In this document: in pieces, positions 5,158 to 12,752 of the stretch | How positions within the stretch are numbered: position 1 is the stretch's first letter | Layout of the letters: each line of letters starts with the position of its first letter | Assembly: GCF_000828655.1 (NCBI RefSeq) | Contig: NZ_AP014509.1 | Span: 1,922,001-1,986,000, forward strand | Length of the DNA: 64,000 bases | Direction of reading: 5' to 3' | Source: Thermotoga caldifontis AZM44c09 | Lineage (GTDB): Bacteria; Thermotogota; Thermotogae; Thermotogales; DSM-5069 | Notes under the pieces: generated by a model | The model's database searches: none | Seen by the model: the letters and a program-made list of their open reading frames with translations, nothing else | What the model was told of the DNA's origin: nothing | Program-made: the position numbers and the translations under genes

Positions 5158-6168
5158 TCAATAGAAAAGTTTCACGAGCGATCTCAGATGCTCTTCCACT
5201 GTCCTCACGTTCAGCATCGTCTCGCTGTACGGAACCTCAGTCACCGTCAATCCTCTCATACCAACGGCATGGTAGATCCTTGCCGCCTTGATCATTTCCA
5301 CAGCCCTCGTGGCCATCAGCGTGGCTACGAGGCGGTCCATGGCGACGGGGCTCCCACCACGCTGCAGATAACCAAGGTTCGTGTATCTCCATTCCACACC
5401 GAACTCTTTGAAATTCTTCTCCACGAACGATCCTATCGCCTGAGCCGCGGGAACTTCCTGAGAAAGACCCAGGTTACGGTAGAAATCTTCGGGCAACCTG
5501 ACACCGCTTTCAACAACGATGATCGAGAACCTCTTGTGCCCTTCGTAACGTGTCCTTATTTTCCTGAGAAGATCGTCCGGGTCGAAGGGCTCAGCACTCG
5601 AAACGACATAATCGGCCCCTCCGGTGAGTCCTCCCACCGTGGCGATCCAACCACCCGGTTTTCCCATCGTCTCGACTATCATCACCCTGTGGTGAGATTC
5701 CGCAGTTGAATGAAGAACATCGAGCGCGTTCTTGACGTTCTCAACCGCGGTGAAGAAGCCTATGGAAAAATCGGTGAAGGAAAGATCGTTGTCTATCGTG
5801 GCAGGAATCAACAAGGATGGCACGTTCTTTTTCGAAAGGTTCAGCGCAGCCCTGACACCGAGCCTGCCGCCGAGGATGATCAACGAGGTGATCGCGTACT
5901 GTTCTACCTTCTTCTGAACCAATTTCATCTGCTCTTCATCCTCAGGAACCAGCAGAGATGTTCCCAGTATGGTCCCACCTTTGTGAAGGATTCCGGACAC
6001 GTTCGTCTTCGTCATCACGTCGAGCTGATCCTTCAAGAATCCTTCGAAGCCGTCCTTAACACCGAGCACCTCGATGTCGAGTTCGGACGCTTTCACAACC
6101 ACAGCCCTGATCGCCGCATTCAAACCTGGACAATCGTTCCCCACACAGAGAATCGCCACTCTTTTCAT
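5158..6168 (-). CDS. Divergent 6-phosphofructokinase-family protein with altered phosphoryl-donor site
   Basis: PFK fold, 336 residues, but not a standard enzyme. The fructose-6-phosphate side is kept: TIDND (124-128) with the catalytic Asp, the Arg before VMIVETMG (R161), the Glu of VVESGV, the Arg of EWR, and LQRGGSP. The donor side is altered compared with E. coli PfkA. The GGD of the first loop is G-N-D (residues 10-12), Arg72 is Leu72, and GGDGS is GGRLG (100-104), so the Mg-binding Asp is replaced by Arg. MGR is MGK and the active-site His before LQRG is Tyr. It begins 6 bases after hppA and runs into sdaAB, so it is probably cotranscribed. Two ordinary PFKs are also in the window (11493 and 18135). 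It could be a sugar-phosphate sensor, a PFK subunit, or an enzyme with another donor. Confidence 0.85.
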   Translation of the reverse strand: MKRVAILCVGNDCPGLNAAIRAVVVKASELDIEVLGVKDGFEGFLKDQLDVMTKTNVSGILHKGGTILGTSLLVPEDEEQMKLVQKKVEQYAITSLIILGGRLGVRAALNLSKKNVPSLLIPATIDNDLSFTDFSIGFFTAVENVKNALDVLHSTAESHHRVMIVETMGKPGGWIATVGGLTGGADYVVSSAEPFDPDDLLRKIRTRYEGHKRFSIIVVESGVRLPEDFYRNLGLSQEVPAAQAIGSFVEKNFKEFGVEWRYTNLGYLQRGGSPVAMDRLVATLMATRAVEMIKAARIYHAVGMRGLTVTEVPYSETMLNVRTVEEHLRSLVKLFY

Positions 6169-6174
6169 TCGTTC

Positions 6175-8121
6175 TTACCTCCCCACCATCGTGGCAATCA
6201 CCACGGAAGTCACAGCCATGAGCTTTATCAGAATGTTGATTGAAGGCCCCGCGGTGTCTTTGAGCGGATCTCCAACCGTGTCTCCGACCACGGTCGCTTT
6301 GTGCGTCACAGACCCTTTACCCCCAAAGTGTCCTTCCTCAACGTACTTCTTCGCGTTGTCCCAAGCTCCACCCGAGTTGGACATGAATATTGCTACCATC
6401 ACACCACAAACCGTGGCGCCTATCAAGAGTCCGGCCGTACCAACCGCACCCAGACTGAAATAAGTCAGGATCGGTGAACCCACGGCCAGCAAACTTGGGA
6501 GCACCATTCTCCTGAGTGCGCCACGCGTGGCTATCTGAATGCATCTCGTGTAATCTGGAAGATTCTCACCAGATATGATACCCGGAATTTCCCTTATCTG
6601 CCTCCTGATTTCCTCGACCATTTCATCCGCCGCATAACCAACGGCCTTCATCGTCAGAGCACTGAAGAGGAACGGAAGCATGGCCCCGACCAGTGCCCCA
6701 ACGAAGAGGGCAGGTTGCCTTATATCGAAGTTCTCCACATGCGAGACGTTGGCAAAGTTTGCGAACAAAGCCAGGCTCGTCATCGCTGCAGAAGCTATCG
6801 CAAAACCTTTCCCCATGGCAGCTGTGGTGTTACCAACCGCATCGAGCTCGTCTGTTATCTTCCTCACATCGTCACCGAGTCCTGTCATCTGCGCGATGCC
6901 ACCTGCGTTGTCGGCGATGGGACCGTAGGCGTCTATGGCCAAACTCATACCCAAAGTTGCGAGCATACCCACCGCGGAGAGCGCCACACCGTAGAGACCA
7001 AGGAGCCTGTGACAGAAAACCACACCGGAGACTATCATCAGCGTCACCACGAAGGTCGATTCCATTCCGAGTGCCAGACCGTTGATGAGGAAATTCGCAG
7101 GGCCCATCAACGCGGATTTTGCGAGCCTCTCGACGCGCGCTCCGGAGGTGTAGAACTCCGTGAACAAACCTATGGAAATTCCTATGATCACACCAACGAG
7201 AACGGCGAAGAACTCGGCAAAGCTTTTCTGAAAGAAGGAATACAGAAACAAGGCCGCGACCAGTGCAAGGTTGGCAACGATCGTGCCGAGTCTCAGCGCC
7301 GTGGCCGCATCCTTCGCCCTGTCACTGAGCGATCGGGTCAACAGCACGGCGAAGATGGAAGCGAGCAAACCAACCGAGACCGTGAACAGTACCAGGTCCA
7401 GCTTCTGTTTTTCACCGAGAGCGGAAGCCAGAGCGAGCGCTGAGAATATCGAGCCAACGTAGGACTCGAACAAGTCCGCACCCATGCCCGCCACATCACC
7501 CACGTTGTCTCCGACGTTGTCCGCGATGACGGCAGGATTTCTCGGATCGTCCTCAGGTAGGTTCGCCTCCGTTTTTCCCACGATGTCAGCGCCGACGTCG
7601 GCCGCCTTGGTGAATATGCCTCCCCCAACGCGCGCGAACAGTGCCACAAAGGATGCGCCCAAAGAGTAGTAACTCACCTTGGTCACGTCTCTGGTCAAAA
7701 CGTAGACTACTGTCAATCCCAGTAATCCCAGTGACGAAACGGTCAAACCCATCACGGCACCGCCGCTGAACGCGATCTTCAAAGCTCTCCCAAGGCCCTG
7801 TCTCGCCGCCCAGCTCGTGCGAACGTTCGCCTTCGTGGCTATAGCCATACCAAAGAAACCGCTCAGCGTCGAAAAAGCCGCACCCACTAAGAACGCGCCT
7901 GCGATCTTCCACCCCAGCGAGAACCCAAGCAACGAAGAGAGAGCGAGTACGAAAGGTAGAAACACCTTGTATTCGCTGAACAAGAAAGACCTCGCACCGT
8001 CCTGGATGATTTTTGATAGCTGTACCATCTTTTCGCTGCCGGGGCTGCTGTCTAAGATTTTGAAGGCCAAAAACAAAACGTAAGCTATTCCCAAAAGGGA
8101 AGTAATGAGCACAAAGAACAA
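6175..8121 (-). CDS. hppA: Membrane-bound ion-translocating pyrophosphatase, K+-dependent type
   Basis: Integral membrane pump that hydrolyses pyrophosphate and moves Na+ or H+ outward. It is 648 residues with many hydrophobic segments. Substrate-site motifs are clear: DVGADIVGKTEANLPEDDP near residue 175, then AVIADNVGDNVGDVAG and GADLFESYVGS. The GNTTAAMGKGFA segment near residue 410 carries Ala where K+-independent pumps carry Lys, so a K+-dependent enzyme is predicted. Whether Na+ or H+ is moved I cannot tell. The start is TTG at 8121, eight bases after GGAGGTG. It is shorter than the 726-residue Thermotoga enzyme I remember. It is first gene of the operon with the PFK-like and serine dehydratase genes. 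Confidence 0.95.
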   Translation of the reverse strand: MFFVLITSLLGIAYVLFLAFKILDSSPGSEKMVQLSKIIQDGARSFLFSEYKVFLPFVLALSSLLGFSLGWKIAGAFLVGAAFSTLSGFFGMAIATKANVRTSWAARQGLGRALKIAFSGGAVMGLTVSSLGLLGLTVVYVLTRDVTKVSYYSLGASFVALFARVGGGIFTKAADVGADIVGKTEANLPEDDPRNPAVIADNVGDNVGDVAGMGADLFESYVGSIFSALALASALGEKQKLDLVLFTVSVGLLASIFAVLLTRSLSDRAKDAATALRLGTIVANLALVAALFLYSFFQKSFAEFFAVLVGVIIGISIGLFTEFYTSGARVERLAKSALMGPANFLINGLALGMESTFVVTLMIVSGVVFCHRLLGLYGVALSAVGMLATLGMSLAIDAYGPIADNAGGIAQMTGLGDDVRKITDELDAVGNTTAAMGKGFAIASAAMTSLALFANFANVSHVENFDIRQPALFVGALVGAMLPFLFSALTMKAVGYAADEMVEEIRRQIREIPGIISGENLPDYTRCIQIATRGALRRMVLPSLLAVGSPILTYFSLGAVGTAGLLIGATVCGVMVAIFMSNSGGAWDNAKKYVEEGHFGGKGSVTHKATVVGDTVGDPLKDTAGPSINILIKLMAVTSVVIATMVGR

Positions 8122-8161
8122 AGCAGGTGCACCTCCTTTGCAAATATTTCCTGATAGTTAT

Positions 8162-8191
8162 ATCATACCCGAGCTTCACTCATCGAATCAA
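8162..8191 (-). promoter_or_regulatory. Candidate promoter of the hppA operon
   Basis: Minus strand: TTGATT (8186-8191), 18-base spacer, TATGAT (8162-8167), ending about 40 bases before the hppA start. The -35 element lies inside the 3' end of the deacetylase gene, so some read-through from the dap operon is also possible. Confidence 0.55.
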
Positions 8192-9266
8192 GGAGGTGCA
8201 CAAGAAGATCCCCAGCGACTGGGATCAATTCGTCGGCGGGGAGAAAACGTGGAGAATGAAGACCCTCGATTCTTGGTTTCTGTCTGACACCGAACCAGAA
8301 CATCAGGGTACGGAAGTGCCTCGAGAAATAACCAAAATCTTCGGCGGTGAGCTTTCTCTCGCACTCAACATATTCGATACCATTTTCTTCGCATACACGT
8401 CTCAGCACAGACAGAAGGCCCTCATCGATCATCACTTCAGGGTACACCGCCGCTGGATTCACAGAAACCTTGACTCCCGTTTCGTCTTCAACCTCTCTTG
8501 CAAAGCTTTGAAGTACTTCGATCACACCGTGCAGTCTCTCAGTTTCACTCACTCTCACCGTTCCCTCGATCAAGGCTTCACCGGCCACAACGTTTCTGAT
8601 CTGACCCGCAAGGAGCCTTCCGAACCAAACGAGATCATCCTTCCAATCCCATGCGTACACCCGATTCAGAAACATCACGGCACTTTTTAAAGCGTCTCTA
8701 CCAAGCCGGTGCTGGGCGACGTGAGCAGATCGCCCCTCCACACGAACGTTCACTTCACAGGAAGCGCTGAAGAGAGGGCCAGGCCTGCTTGCGACCACGC
8801 CCGCAGGATATTCGTCCGTCACATGCATGGCTACGGCTGCTTTGACATCACAATCCCATCGCGTGATGTGTTCAACGATCTTCCTCGCACCTGCACCGCT
8901 CTCTTCAGCCGGTTGAAAAACGAACAAATAATTTCCCCGTTTGTCTTCTTCCACGATCCTCCTCAGCGCCCAGCAGACCGCCGCTATGTGGAAATCGTGA
9001 CCACAAGCGTGCATTCTTCCGTTGCTGGCCCGGAATGGATAATCCGTCTCTTCTGGTATGGGTAACGCATCCATCTCTGCCCTCACGATCACGTAAGGTT
9101 CGTGCTCTCTCCTTTCCAGGAACACCAGCACTCCGGTTCCCAGTGTGAGGATATTGTTCAATCCGAGCCCACGGACGAACTCGACTATCAATCTCTGGGT
9201 GTTGTACTCTTCGAACGCGAGCTCAGGATTTTGATGAATCAACCTTCTCAACGTGATCTCGTCCAT
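8163..9266 (-). CDS. M20-family amidohydrolase, probable N-acetyldiaminopimelate deacetylase
   Basis: Metal-dependent amidohydrolase of peptidase family M20D, 367 residues. Metal-ligand motifs are present: RAEMDALPIPEE (near residue 62), ACGHDFH (near 91), the catalytic EE of QPAEESGAGA (near 120), and AMHVTDE. A RSAHVAQHRLGRDA segment lies in the dimerisation domain, and a C-terminal His is in LHSP. Context decides the substrate: it follows dapH and a class III aminotransferase with overlapping frames, matching the last step of the acetylase route, N-acetyl-L,L-diaminopimelate to L,L-diaminopimelate plus acetate. By sequence alone it could be an N-acyl-amino-acid or hippurate hydrolase. Confidence 0.87.
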   Translation of the reverse strand: MDEITLRRLIHQNPELAFEEYNTQRLIVEFVRGLGLNNILTLGTGVLVFLERREHEPYVIVRAEMDALPIPEETDYPFRASNGRMHACGHDFHIAAVCWALRRIVEEDKRGNYLFVFQPAEESGAGARKIVEHITRWDCDVKAAVAMHVTDEYPAGVVASRPGPLFSASCEVNVRVEGRSAHVAQHRLGRDALKSAVMFLNRVYAWDWKDDLVWFGRLLAGQIRNVVAGEALIEGTVRVSETERLHGVIEVLQSFAREVEDETGVKVSVNPAAVYPEVMIDEGLLSVLRRVCEENGIEYVECERKLTAEDFGYFSRHFRTLMFWFGVRQKPRIEGLHSPRFLPADELIPVAGDLLVHLLDSMSEARV

Positions 9267-10404
9267 ATGCCTCGTTCAAACTCCTTTCGAACAATTCCAG
9301 CATCTCCTCGATCTGATCAAAACTGATGTTCAGTGCCGGAAGGAACCTCACAACGTTGCCAGAAACCACGTTCAAGAGCAAACCGTTTTTCAGAGCTACC
9401 TGCTTCAGTACTTCCGGATCGACGCTGACCTCAACGCCTATCATCAAACCCAGTCCCTTCACTGCCAGTATCCCTGAACCCATTTGGAGCAACCTTTCTT
9501 TCATGAACCTGCCCTTTTCGGCGACTCGATGAATGAACTCGTCTGTGAGTTTGTTCAGAACGATTCTCGCACCAGCCAGCGCCACGGGATTCGGTGCGAA
9601 GGTTGAACCGTGCTCTGAATAGCCGAAAACGTCTGCGACATCCTCAAGAAAGAGCACCGCGCCGAGTGGCAAACCTCCTCCGAGCGCCTTGGCCACCGTT
9701 ACGATATCGGGTTGAAGATCGAAATGCTGGTACGAGAAGAACTTGCCCGTCCTGCCCAATCCCGCCTGGACCTCGTCAGCCACCAGAAGAAAACCGAACT
9801 CTTGCCTGGCCTCCTCTATGAGTTTTGCGAGTTCACCATCCAGGACGTTCAAACCACCGCTTCCATGAACACACTCCACGAAAACTGCCGAGATCTCTTT
9901 TCCCTTCTCGTTTAACAGTTTTTCGAACGAATCAACGTCGTTGTGTGGAAGGAAAATCACGTCAGAAAGCAGTGGCTCGAAGGGTTTTCTCAAACCAGCG
10001 AAACCTGTCACGGACAGAGCAGCGATCGTTCTGCCGTGGAAGTTCCTTTCGAACGACACGATCAATCCTTTTCGCAACTTCTTGACGGCTTTCAGAGCAG
10101 CCTCGTTCGCTTCTGCGCCCGAGTTTGTGAAGAACACCTTGCCGGTTCTGCCAGTTCTCTCGATCAGTTTCTCTGCCACGATTTCTGCATCTTCATCGAG
10201 GAAAAAGTTCGAAACATGCATGTATCGCTCCATCTTCTCGATCATGGCCTTTCTTATGTCTTCATCACCGTGACCAAACGCCAGCACACCGATTCCGGAG
10301 AAAGTGTCAATGTAGCGTTTTCCGTCCGTGGAGTAAATGTATATCCCCCTGGCTCTGTCGATCCGGATCGGAAAGGGTTTGTAAACTGGGCAGATGTGGC
10401 TCAT
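9223..10404 (-). CDS. Class III aminotransferase, probable N-acetyl-diaminopimelate (or acetylornithine) aminotransferase
   Basis: PLP-dependent aminotransferase of the ArgD type, about 393 residues. Visible motifs are FTNSGAEANEAALK (near residue 90), NFHGRTIAALSVTG, the PLP-ring Asp in LLVADEVQAGLGRTG (near 210), and the Schiff-base Lys in VTVAKALGGGLPLGA. In the acetylase lysine route this step gives N-acetyl-L,L-diaminopimelate from the keto form with glutamate. ArgD-type enzymes often also act on acetylornithine. The ATG at 10404 follows AGGTGAT by 5 bases; a GTG at 10413 overlapping the dapH stop is the alternative. It overlaps the deacetylase gene by 44 bases, so the three genes are one transcription unit. 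Confidence 0.87.
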   Translation of the reverse strand: MSHICPVYKPFPIRIDRARGIYIYSTDGKRYIDTFSGIGVLAFGHGDEDIRKAMIEKMERYMHVSNFFLDEDAEIVAEKLIERTGRTGKVFFTNSGAEANEAALKAVKKLRKGLIVSFERNFHGRTIAALSVTGFAGLRKPFEPLLSDVIFLPHNDVDSFEKLLNEKGKEISAVFVECVHGSGGLNVLDGELAKLIEEARQEFGFLLVADEVQAGLGRTGKFFSYQHFDLQPDIVTVAKALGGGLPLGAVLFLEDVADVFGYSEHGSTFAPNPVALAGARIVLNKLTDEFIHRVAEKGRFMKERLLQMGSGILAVKGLGLMIGVEVSVDPEVLKQVALKNGLLLNVVSGNVVRFLPALNISFDQIEEMLELFERSLNEAYGRDHVEKVDSSKS

Positions 10405-10409
10405 ACCGA

Positions 10410-11171
10410 TCACCTGATCGTCGTGTTGATATGCCTCAGCGCTTCGACTATCTTCGTCTTTTCTTTGGTTCTGTCGTCGACTCTCTTTACGAAGCGTGCG
10501 GGAACACCCGCAACAACGGTGTAAGGTTCCACATCGTTTATCACGACAGCACCGGCTGCCACGACGGCCCCCCTTCCCACCCTCACACCCTCGAGGACCA
10601 CGGCGTTGGCGCCCACGATCACTTCGTCCTCAATGATGACCGGCGTTGCACTCGGAGGTTCCAGCACGCCGGCGATCACGGCCCCCGCACCTATGTGACA
10701 GTTCTTTCCAATGATGGCCCTCGCACCAACAACCGCGTTCATATCGATCATGGTTTTCTCACCAATAACTGCCCCGACGTTTATGATCGCACCCATCATG
10801 ATCACGGCACCATCACCGATCTTCACCATGTCCCTGATGATCGCACCGGGCTCGATCCTCGCGTTGTACTTCGTCAGATCTGCCAGCGGCAAGGCGGAGT
10901 TTCGTGCCAGCACTTGTACGTGGAAATCTTCAATCCGGTCAGGGTGAGATTCGATCAACCTTTTAAAATCTTCGTATTCAGCCACGACGATCCCGAAATC
11001 ACCGTTTCCAAAGAAGCGAACCGCTGAAAAATCGATCTCACTCAACTTTCCCTTCACGAAAGCGACCACGGGCGTTCTTTTTCTGGACCTGCTGATCAGT
11101 TCGATCAGCTGTTCAGTGCTTTGAAGATCCGCAGCTTCAGAACTGGTACTCTCCAGAAGTTCACCCGCCAT
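10410..11171 (-). CDS. dapH: Tetrahydrodipicolinate N-acetyltransferase
   Basis: Left-handed beta-helix acetyltransferase, 253 residues. It transfers acetyl from acetyl-CoA to tetrahydrodipicolinate, committing carbon to diaminopimelate for lysine and peptidoglycan. An N-terminal helical domain is followed by hexapeptide repeats from about residue 90 (IEPGAIIRDMVKIGDGAVIMMGA; VIGEKTMIDMNAVVGARAIIG; HIGAGAVIAGV) and the DapH-typical EPPSATPVIIEDEV segment. The start at 11171 has AGGAGGGG just upstream; the longer ORF is non-coding leader. An intrinsic terminator sits 20 bases before the ATG, so expression probably depends on antitermination (see 11189-11347). Confidence 0.93.
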   Translation of the reverse strand: MAGELLESTSSEAADLQSTEQLIELISRSRKRTPVVAFVKGKLSEIDFSAVRFFGNGDFGIVVAEYEDFKRLIESHPDRIEDFHVQVLARNSALPLADLTKYNARIEPGAIIRDMVKIGDGAVIMMGAIINVGAVIGEKTMIDMNAVVGARAIIGKNCHIGAGAVIAGVLEPPSATPVIIEDEVIVGANAVVLEGVRVGRGAVVAAGAVVINDVEPYTVVAGVPARFVKRVDDRTKEKTKIVEALRHINTTIR

Positions 11172-11188
11172 ACTCTCACCCCTCCTAT

Positions 11189-11220
11189 AAAAAACCGGGC
11201 TACCTTCTCGGTAGCCCGGT
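11189..11220 (-). terminator. Intrinsic terminator in the dapH leader
   Basis: Minus strand: an 11-bp perfect stem (ACCGGGCTACC / GGTAGCCCGGT), loop GAGAA, then six T residues. It lies between the leader reading frame and the dapH ribosome site, so it must be bypassed for dapH to be expressed. Confidence 0.88.
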
Positions 11221-11277
11221 GATCTTTTCTCCGTCCGGTGTGCTACAACGAACGCACACCGCCACAGATCACCGGGC
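11214..11277 (-). promoter_or_regulatory. Antiterminator pairing in the dapH leader (putative lysine attenuator)
   Basis: On the minus strand, segment GCCCGGTGATC (11267-11277) is exactly complementary to GATCACCGGGC (11214-11224). The latter contains seven bases of the 5' arm of the terminator. Pairing of the two encloses a perfect 8-bp hairpin (CGGTGTGC / GCACACCG) and excludes the terminator. The first segment lies inside the leader frame, starting about eight bases after a cluster of four Lys codons, so ribosome position could choose between the folds. The base pairing is seen directly; the amino-acid signal is inference. Confidence 0.7.
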
Positions 11278-11347
11278 GGTTGCACTTCTTGTCTTTCTTC
11301 ATTTCGATGTGAACCTTCAACTCCTCAGAAAACACGTTCACGCACAT
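11243..11347 (-). CDS. Putative Lys-codon-containing leader peptide of the dap operon
   Basis: Short frame of 34 codons from an ATG at 11347 (AGAGGGAG lies 11 bases upstream) to TAG at 11243. An internal ATG at 11302 would give 19 residues beginning Met-Lys-Lys-Asp-Lys-Lys-Cys. The Lys cluster immediately precedes the antiterminator segment, and the stop codon lies at the base of the small hairpin, the layout expected for transcription attenuation of a lysine pathway. I do not recognise the peptide as a protein family. A non-translated role, with the frame being chance, cannot be excluded. Confidence 0.5.
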   Translation of the reverse strand: MCVNVFSEELKVHIEMKKDKKCNRPVICGGVRSL

Positions 11348-11465
11348 CGATCAATCTGCTCCCTCTTGCCTTGGATTGTAATGCTGTTCACGATAAACGT
11401 TGCTGAACAGAAACGAAAGACTGCCTGACAAAACTGTTACGTTCCCGCTGGTTGTGGGCCGTGCT

Positions 11466-11471
11466 TATAAT
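11466..11471 (+). promoter_or_regulatory. Candidate -10 element of the PPi-PFK gene; remainder of the 11172-11492 gap
   Basis: TATAAT lies 21 bases before the GTG start, so the transcript would have a very short leader just containing the AGGAGGTG site. No convincing -35 is seen. The rest of this gene-sparse stretch is the dapH leader on the other strand. I could not place the promoter of that leader; TACAAT near 11371-11380 on the minus strand is a weak candidate. Confidence 0.4.
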
Positions 11472-11492
11472 CTTCATCAGGAGGTGTTCACA

Positions 11493-12752
11493 GTGTCCGA
11501 TCGTCTCGCGATCTTAGTTGGAGGAGGACCAGCCCCTGGCATCAACAGCGTTATCAACGCCGTGACCATCGAAGCGGTGAACAACGGCCTTGAAGTGATA
11601 GGCATCTACGATGGTTTTGAACACCTCATGAAGGGCAGAACGGATATGGTGAGACCGCTCAGCATTTCCGATGTGTCCAGAATTCACACCGAAGGTGGTT
11701 CGATCCTCAGAACCTCGCGGGCGAACCCCACCAAGAGCCAGAAAGACCTGGAGACAGTTGTGGAGACTTTAAAAAAACTGAACGTGAAGTACCTCGTGAC
11801 CATCGGTGGAGACGATACCGCCTCTTCTGCTTCTGCCATTTCGAAGGTCGCGGGTGATACCATCCGCATAGCACACGTACCAAAAACGATCGACAACGAT
11901 TTACCCCTGCCGGGCGGTATGCCCACGTTCGGTTACGAAACCGCTCGACACGTCGGTGCCGAACTGGTTTACAACCTCCTTCAGGATTCGAGGACCACGA
12001 ACAGATGGTATTTCGTCGTCGTCATGGGAAGAAAAGCGGGTCACCTCGCGCTCGGCATAGGCAAAGCGGCGAGCGCCACCATAACAGTCATCGCGGAAGA
12101 GTTCCGAAAAGAGAAAATCAGTCTCGCAGAAGTGTGCGATGTACTTGAAGCTGCAATAATAAAACGCAGGGTATTAGGAAGAAACGATGGCCTGGCGGTC
12201 ATCGCCGAGGGAATCGGTGAAATACTGGATGAAAACGAACTCGCAAGCATACCGGGTGTCATAGTCGAAAAAGATCCACACGGTCACATCAGATTGAGCG
12301 AGATACCGCTGGCAACGATACTCAAGAGGGAAATCCAGAAGCGGTTCGCCGAGCGCGGAGAAAAGATGGCGATCGTCGATGTGACGCTCGGTTACGAACT
12401 GAGGTGTGCTCGACCGATACCTTTCGACATCGATTACACCAGAACCCTCGGTTATGGGGCCGTGCAGTTTTTGCTGGGAAAGATCGCTTCCAACATGAAG
12501 GCCGGGATGGTTTGTCTGGACCAGGGAAGAATAACGATTCTGCCTTTTGAAGCATTCACCGATCCAGAGACGGGAAGGAGCAAGGTGAGGCTGGTTGATC
12601 TGAACTCCGAACACTACAAAGTCGCGAAGAGTTACATGATAAGGCTCACAAAGAAAGACCTCGAAGATCCTGTAATGCTCTCCAAGCTCGCAGCTGTAGC
12701 GAAGATGACTCCCGAGCAGTTCAGAGAGAGGTTCGCAAGAATAGCAGATTGA
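11493..12752 (+). CDS. pfp: Pyrophosphate-type 6-phosphofructokinase
   Basis: Phosphorylates fructose-6-phosphate with pyrophosphate in glycolysis, a reversible reaction. It is 419 residues, the size of the Thermotoga PPi-PFK. Motifs: ILVGGGPAPGINSVI (residues 7-21); GGDD at 105-108, where the second Asp (in place of Gly104 of ATP enzymes) marks PPi use; KTIDND at 131-136; and a MGRKAGHLALG segment. The GTG at 11493 follows AGGAGGTG by six bases. It is a lone gene, ending at a strong terminator. The membrane pyrophosphatase about 3 kb away competes for the same substrate. Confidence 0.94.
   Translation: MSDRLAILVGGGPAPGINSVINAVTIEAVNNGLEVIGIYDGFEHLMKGRTDMVRPLSISDVSRIHTEGGSILRTSRANPTKSQKDLETVVETLKKLNVKYLVTIGGDDTASSASAISKVAGDTIRIAHVPKTIDNDLPLPGGMPTFGYETARHVGAELVYNLLQDSRTTNRWYFVVVMGRKAGHLALGIGKAASATITVIAEEFRKEKISLAEVCDVLEAAIIKRRVLGRNDGLAVIAEGIGEILDENELASIPGVIVEKDPHGHIRLSEIPLATILKREIQKRFAERGEKMAIVDVTLGYELRCARPIPFDIDYTRTLGYGAVQFLLGKIASNMKAGMVCLDQGRITILPFEAFTDPETGRSKVRLVDLNSEHYKVAKSYMIRLTKKDLEDPVMLSKLAAVAKMTPEQFRERFARIAD

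Follow-up and report, generated by a model that had tools for sequence, protein, structure and literature searches.

Lysine is a textbook riboswitch amino acid, and the dapH locus of Thermotoga caldifontis AZM44c09 raises the question of what controls a lysine-pathway gene that is preceded instead by a short frame rich in lysine codons and an intrinsic terminator. The window analysed here is the 64,000-nt stretch at positions 1,922,001-1,986,000 of contig NZ_AP014509.1, and window numbering is used throughout. The element is very probably a ribosome-mediated transcription attenuator reading lysyl-tRNA supply. This reading is based on the parts of the element, their conservation, covariation and position, and the codon swaps seen among its relatives; promoter use, leader translation, stalling and a lysine response are what we infer from the sequence.

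The dapH leader and its alternative helices

On the minus strand before dapH, a 34-codon frame runs from an ATG at 11347-11345 to a TAG at 11245-11243, and an internal ATG at 11302-11300 would give a 19-codon version. Lysine makes up 5/34 of the leader residues (binomial P 0.03), and four of the five lie within the six-codon stretch MKKDKK (P about 1e-4, for a single chosen span); the pattern KKxKK does not occur in 3,340 aa of neighbouring proteins. The features of the locus are as follows.

11375..11380, minus strand: TACAAT, a candidate -10 element ahead of the leader gene, spotted by eye; a similar sequence is found there in relatives, and the element is absent from the promoter-scan list
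11243..11347, minus strand: leader peptide gene of 34 codons, MCVNVFSEELKVHIEMKKDKKCNRPVICGGVRSL followed by the stop, from frame reading; kept in-frame in nine family genomes
11294..11299, minus strand: additional Lys codons AAG AAA; 9/9 dapH leaders have a Lys at position -22
11285..11290, minus strand: control codons AAG AAG, invariant in nine dapH leaders and in the register common to Lys, Thr, Met and basic control codons elsewhere
11275..11283, minus strand: segment 1, GCAACCGCC, 5' arm of the protector (anti-antiterminator) helix; pairs with 11263-11254, the inner 6 bp covarying in 26 sequences
11266..11277, minus strand: segment A', GCCCGGTGATCT, antiterminator 5' strand in the protector loop; exact 12-nt complement of 11225-11214, covarying
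11254..11263, minus strand: segment B, GGCGGTGTGC, with segment 1 and segment C as alternative partners, from covariation and partition functions
11236..11243, minus strand: segment C, GCACACCG, 3' arm of the release hairpin B:C, with the strongest covariation among the four helices
11214..11225, minus strand: segment D, AGATCACCGGGC, antiterminator 3' strand overlapping the terminator 5' arm, from complementarity; the pair that A', D and E have in common changes jointly
11189..11220, minus strand: intrinsic terminator, 11-bp stem and T-run, from the terminator scan; 98.9% of cells paired
10410..11171, minus strand: dapH, tetrahydrodipicolinate N-acetyltransferase, the controlled gene (TIGR03532, 343 bits against a cut-off of 232)
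9223..10413, minus strand: ArgD-like aminotransferase, cluster gene 2 (PF00202; TIGR00707 under its cut-off)
8163..9266, minus strand: M20 amidohydrolase, likely N-acetyl-diaminopimelate deacetylase, cluster gene 3 (TIGR01891, PF01546, and the operon order of a relative)

The original prediction had named the frame and its 19-codon internal start, the Lys-rich stretch, an 11-bp terminator and an 8-bp hairpin, all of which are present. The terminator stem is perfect (11220-11210 with 11204-11194, T-run 11194-11189), as is the hairpin (CGGTGTGC, 11261-11254, with GCACACCG, 11243-11236). An 11-nt complementarity had also been described between GCCCGGTGATC (11277-11267) and GATCACCGGGC (11224-11214), so placed that antiterminator and terminator exclude each other; the exclusive pairing stands, and its length is corrected to 12 nt (11277-11266 with 11225-11214). 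Shuffling the frame 20,000 times with its dinucleotide content preserved never gave an 11-nt complement, the longest being 10, and the leader folds with z = -4.2 relative to shuffles. The protector helix, formed by segment 1 and B, lies directly 3' of the Lys codons and encloses A' in its loop. The leader stop codon sits at the foot of segment C, and the last control codon (11287-11285) starts 10 nt before the antiterminator strand. The general features of an attenuator can thus be recognised: a short leader gene with codons for the product (KKDKK, conserved and swapped with the pathway), an intrinsic terminator between that gene and the first structural gene, and an antiterminator incompatible both with the terminator and with a protector overlapping the leader, as judged from sequences, covariation and partition functions. 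The GUAGC of the loop could pair with the GCUAC of the terminator arm, which may give it a third partner.

In the proposed mechanism, when lysine is plentiful the ribosome would traverse the leader gene and then depart, after which segment 1 would pair with B, A' would be held within the protector loop, and D would pair with E to end transcription before dapH. When lysyl-tRNA is scarce, the ribosome would halt at the Lys codons and cover segment 1, so that B would pair with C and A' would be left free; A' would then pair with D before E is synthesized, and RNA polymerase would continue into the dapH, aminotransferase and deacetylase genes.

Conservation, covariation and codon position

The leader upstream of dapH is kept in nine family genomes, including that of the window, with its frame, Lys codons and all segments; two of the family contigs (L031 and L032) carry the name Pseudothermotoga. 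The conservation of frame and complementary segments in close relatives, on which the original prediction depended, is therefore found. Among the nine dapH leaders, indels upstream of the core occur in multiples of three, keeping the frame, and the start-proximal part of the peptide is divergent, while its end reads KKCNRPV[IV]..GGV..L or nearly so. In the tenth family genome (G009), dapH follows dapF, and the element is found before dapF instead. The TTG-TAG leader end (11243-11248) and the entire 11-bp stem (11194-11220) are identical in 9/9 dapH leaders, an identity that exceeds the needs of pairing.

A covariance model built from the nine leaders (R1) and a second from 26 sequences (R2) were used to search 103 Thermotogota genomes. 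Relatives were found before asd in ten genomes, before dapA in three and before dapF in two, and also before lysC; in several families they precede genes for amino-acid ABC transporter binding proteins. In loci from other phyla, flanks of up to 3 kb around dapH showed no such element. Matches judged on reading to be chance were L146, L148, L161, L170, L172, L173, L178, L181, L182, L183 and L185.

The four helices were assessed in the 26-sequence alignment, which was fitted on B:C and D:E only, with slid partners and 500 shuffles as controls. A':D was paired in 88.4% of cells, and its slid versions reached no more than 51%; the corresponding paired share and slid maximum were 91.7% and 47% for segment 1:B, 84.9% and 53% for B:C, and 98.9% and 50% for D:E, the slid partners ranging overall from about 20 to 53%. 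All four helices beat 500/500 shuffles on both paired cells and covariation score; because the sequences are related, these counts are not probabilities, and the slides serve as the kinship control. In 9/26 sequences the pair common to A', D and E (columns 34/131/164) reads C-G-C instead of G-C-G, the three strands having changed together. Covariation of the 11267-11277/11214-11224 pairing, proposed earlier as a check, is thus seen in the wider relatives.

As the zero point of the codon register we took the strand complementary to the terminator arm, so that RNA complementarity alone sets the anchor. In nearly all sites, which are not independent within a genus, the last control codon starts 10 nt upstream of the A' strand, whichever amino acid it specifies; the exceptions are a few sites at 8 nt and some shifted transporter leaders. 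Lys codons occupy this position before dapH, dapA, dapF, asd and one lysC. A leader with four Thr codons, NSGTTTTSNCPP, and the same helix plan precedes homoserine dehydrogenase (G006, L166:1493-1608, minus strand), and the Met-run leaders INMMAMMMRCTDR (L171:1495-1602, minus strand) and IAMMPMMMWCTDR (L179:1499-1625, minus strand) precede stand-alone aspartokinases, which the codons suggest to be methionine-specific isoenzymes. The Lys codons anticipated in relatives are therefore conserved, with Thr or Met in their place where the downstream gene belongs to those branches. Since the codons swap with the downstream gene at one register, the constant position of the pathway amino acid points to a ribosome that reads them, and is the strongest evidence for it.

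Mixed Lys/His/Arg leaders occur before an amino-acid binding protein (L135-L137, L151-L153, L159, L160, L162, L168, L175, L177 and L180), for which the reconstructed AncCDT-1 (5t0w) is the nearest relative of solved structure; these leaders suggest a basic amino-acid transporter downstream. L174, whose codons N-E-R-R-D-H-R lie upstream of a transporter-like gene, was not included in the count, and in L176 the leader frame is present with no terminator located by the terminator finder. L164 (1501-1629, minus strand), from the riboswitch-bearing genome G027, has a Tyr-Tyr-Tyr-Phe-Trp-Phe leader and a three-helix attenuator before DAHP synthase; it looks like a real attenuator of a different helix plan and was left out of the averages. 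L165 (1501-1603, minus strand) has seven Asn codons and a terminator, and the next long gene, AsnRS-like, starts about 550 nt downstream, which is a lead only.

Ribosome position, sign of control and rival explanations

The position of the ribosome was scanned with a 29-nt mask, and pairing was computed in transcripts that end before the terminator 3' arm, because equilibrium folding of the full RNA fails to discriminate between ribosome positions. Across 42 sites, at 37 and 65 C, the mean P(A':D) was 0.96 when a control codon before the last one occupied the A site, fell to about 0.6 for the last control codon, and lay between 0.05 and 0.2 for the codons after it; this drop is partly imposed by the mask, and what is informative is that the control codons end at that point. 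Before D is made, the modelled stall shifts the protector from a median of 10.9 bp to 1.1 bp, and B:C from 0.4 bp to 9.9 bp. In the model A' is free with the earlier Lys codons in the A site, partly covered at the last and covered from the next codon onwards, and it is in the model only that a stall at the control codons frees the antiterminator. A stalled ribosome is thus predicted to block the protector and free the antiterminator, so that lysine shortage should lead to read-through.

The original prediction, in which stalling at the Lys codons sets the choice, gains support from the conservation, the covariation, the codon swaps and the model. It had held that a stall at the first Lys codons leaves A' free, as modelled here, and that the last two codons would cover part of it, which in the model holds for the last one; the sign of control, which it had left open, comes out in the model as read-through. 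Once the RNA is full-length, the terminator is the equilibrium outcome for almost every ribosome position, and the switch must therefore be kinetic. A ribosome that paused at the stop codon would expose A' once more, a limit of the model, so termination under plenty would need quick release of the ribosome and a protector that forms first.

Under the opposite sign, a stalled ribosome would itself occupy the antiterminator strand and thereby promote termination; such a view could draw on the covering of A' by a ribosome at least one codon past the last Lys, and of part of it at the last Lys codon itself. However, whether the leader is of the lysine, threonine or methionine kind, its control codons stop at a point where most of A' is uncovered, and a product shortage that silences its own biosynthetic operon would make little sense, which leaves this reading improbable. 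Marginally better placed, though still hard to favour, is an arrest peptide, in which the nascent chain or ribosome-bound free lysine, rather than a shortage of tRNA, would stall translation as in TnaC or SpeFL. The peptide end KKCNRPVI..GG....L of the dapH leaders is strongly conserved and the terminal TTG-TAG invariant, but the conserved codons sit on paired RNA strands, which accounts for their conservation. Moreover, the residues of the sister elements vary widely and track the amino acid of the gene (Lys, Thr, Met) at a fixed register, which fits codon reading better than a single peptide sequence.

The same tracking by control codons weighs against a ligand-binding RNA, an unknown lysine or diaminopimelate riboswitch with the frame only incidental to it. 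The high conservation of the RNA, and its occurrence in place of the lysine riboswitch, would suit such an element, but the indels upstream of the core keep the frame, the family shares no conserved unpaired core beyond the alternative helices, and there is no Rfam match; we consider it very unlikely. Least credible of all is a plain terminator with a chance upstream frame and constitutive read-through. The strong terminator it calls for is certain, but the A'/D complementarity lies beyond 20,000 shuffles, the three alternatives to the terminator covary, and the codon register is conserved. An attenuator that reads lysine codons remains the preferred explanation.

Pathway context, riboswitch distribution and known systems

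In a more distant genome (G047), a related element heads the complete lysine operon asd-dapF-dapA-dapB-dapH-lysC-aminotransferase-amidohydrolase, which ends in the same gene order; the three window genes therefore resemble the end part of such an operon, one that probably became split in this family. DapB (PF05173, DapB_C) was not found in 7/10 dapH-bearing family genomes (the window's own G000, and G001, G002, G003, G007, G008 and G010). It is present only in G004, G006 and G009, in each case adjoining a dapA with its own Lys leader. The genomes lacking a DapB match contain DapF and DHDPS-family proteins, dapH and its partner genes, and they retain the lysine leader of the dapH cluster. Either an unrelated reductase substitutes for DapB, or the dapH cluster serves another reaction. 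Because no DapB was found in its own genome, the product of the window's dapH cluster is uncertain, the standard lysine pathway may not run there, and the pathway assignment of its Lys leader is weakened. The missing DapB, the protector helix and the phylum-wide occurrence go beyond the original prediction. Around the dapH cluster (window 5158-12752) lie genes for a PPi-dependent phosphofructokinase, a membrane Na+-pyrophosphatase and a second phosphofructokinase-family protein.

The lysine riboswitch is found in most Thermotogales (PMC3766115), and RF00168 matched 57/103 genomes of the phylum here. No RF00168 match was obtained in 11/11 family genomes, including the window and its whole genome, which agrees with the original view that the lysine riboswitch fold does not apply, nor in 23/23 genomes with strong R2 matches (E below 1e-8). 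The mutual exclusion of riboswitch and strong attenuator gives a Fisher P of 1.5e-10, over a handful of clades and so few independent events. Riboswitches occur together with transporter-type attenuators in a few genomes (G080, G083 and G087), and the exclusion therefore concerns the lysine biosynthetic site, where the attenuator appears to stand in for the riboswitch. It is plausible, if somewhat short of probable, that one ancestral scaffold (a GCCCGG/CCGGGC core with a fixed 10-nt distance between codon and antiterminator) spread in Thermotogota, was retargeted by replacement of Lys, Thr, Met or basic codons, and displaced or stood in for the lysine riboswitch in several lineages.

Sister lineages with the same operon under a riboswitch or under ribosome stalling would offer a comparison, and, with the codons swapped at a fixed position, replacing them offers a test of the mechanism. 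The leader codons also provide regulatory evidence on the substrates of uncharacterised thermophile transporters and aspartokinases.

The specificities of known attenuators are his, leu, thr and trp, plus ilv and phe (PMC3766115). In Actinobacteria, no RNA element was found upstream of lysine operons, and the L-box was named as the lysine control elsewhere (PMC1262725). A search of the open literature, with most subscription journals outside its scope, returned nothing apt on a lysine attenuator or leader peptide or on attenuation in Thermotoga. No Rfam leader family (Trp, His, Leu, Thr) reached gathering score in the window and 12 related loci, and the T-box (RF00230) had no match in the window, nor in the leader with permissive filters. 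As an attenuator the element follows classical logic; its lysine specificity, its plan of five segments and its spread across the phylum are not described in the literature consulted.

The Actinobacteria trpS/leuS leaders (PMC1262725) and the Rhodobacterales cysS uORF motif (PMC8632094) share with the dapH element a cognate-codon leader gene and alternative helices. The L-box (RF00168) has the same target, a lysine operon that it controls in sister families within the phylum; the element here takes about 160 nt, including a coding frame. The trp, his, leu and thr attenuators (RF00513, RF00514, RF00512 and RF00506) likewise have a cognate-codon leader gene, a protector, an antiterminator and an intrinsic terminator, and in attenuators of this type stalling leads to read-through (PMC2659441). 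By contrast, the cognate amino acid here is lysine, and the element has five segments, with its own antiterminator strand A' in the protector loop, released by the extra hairpin B:C.
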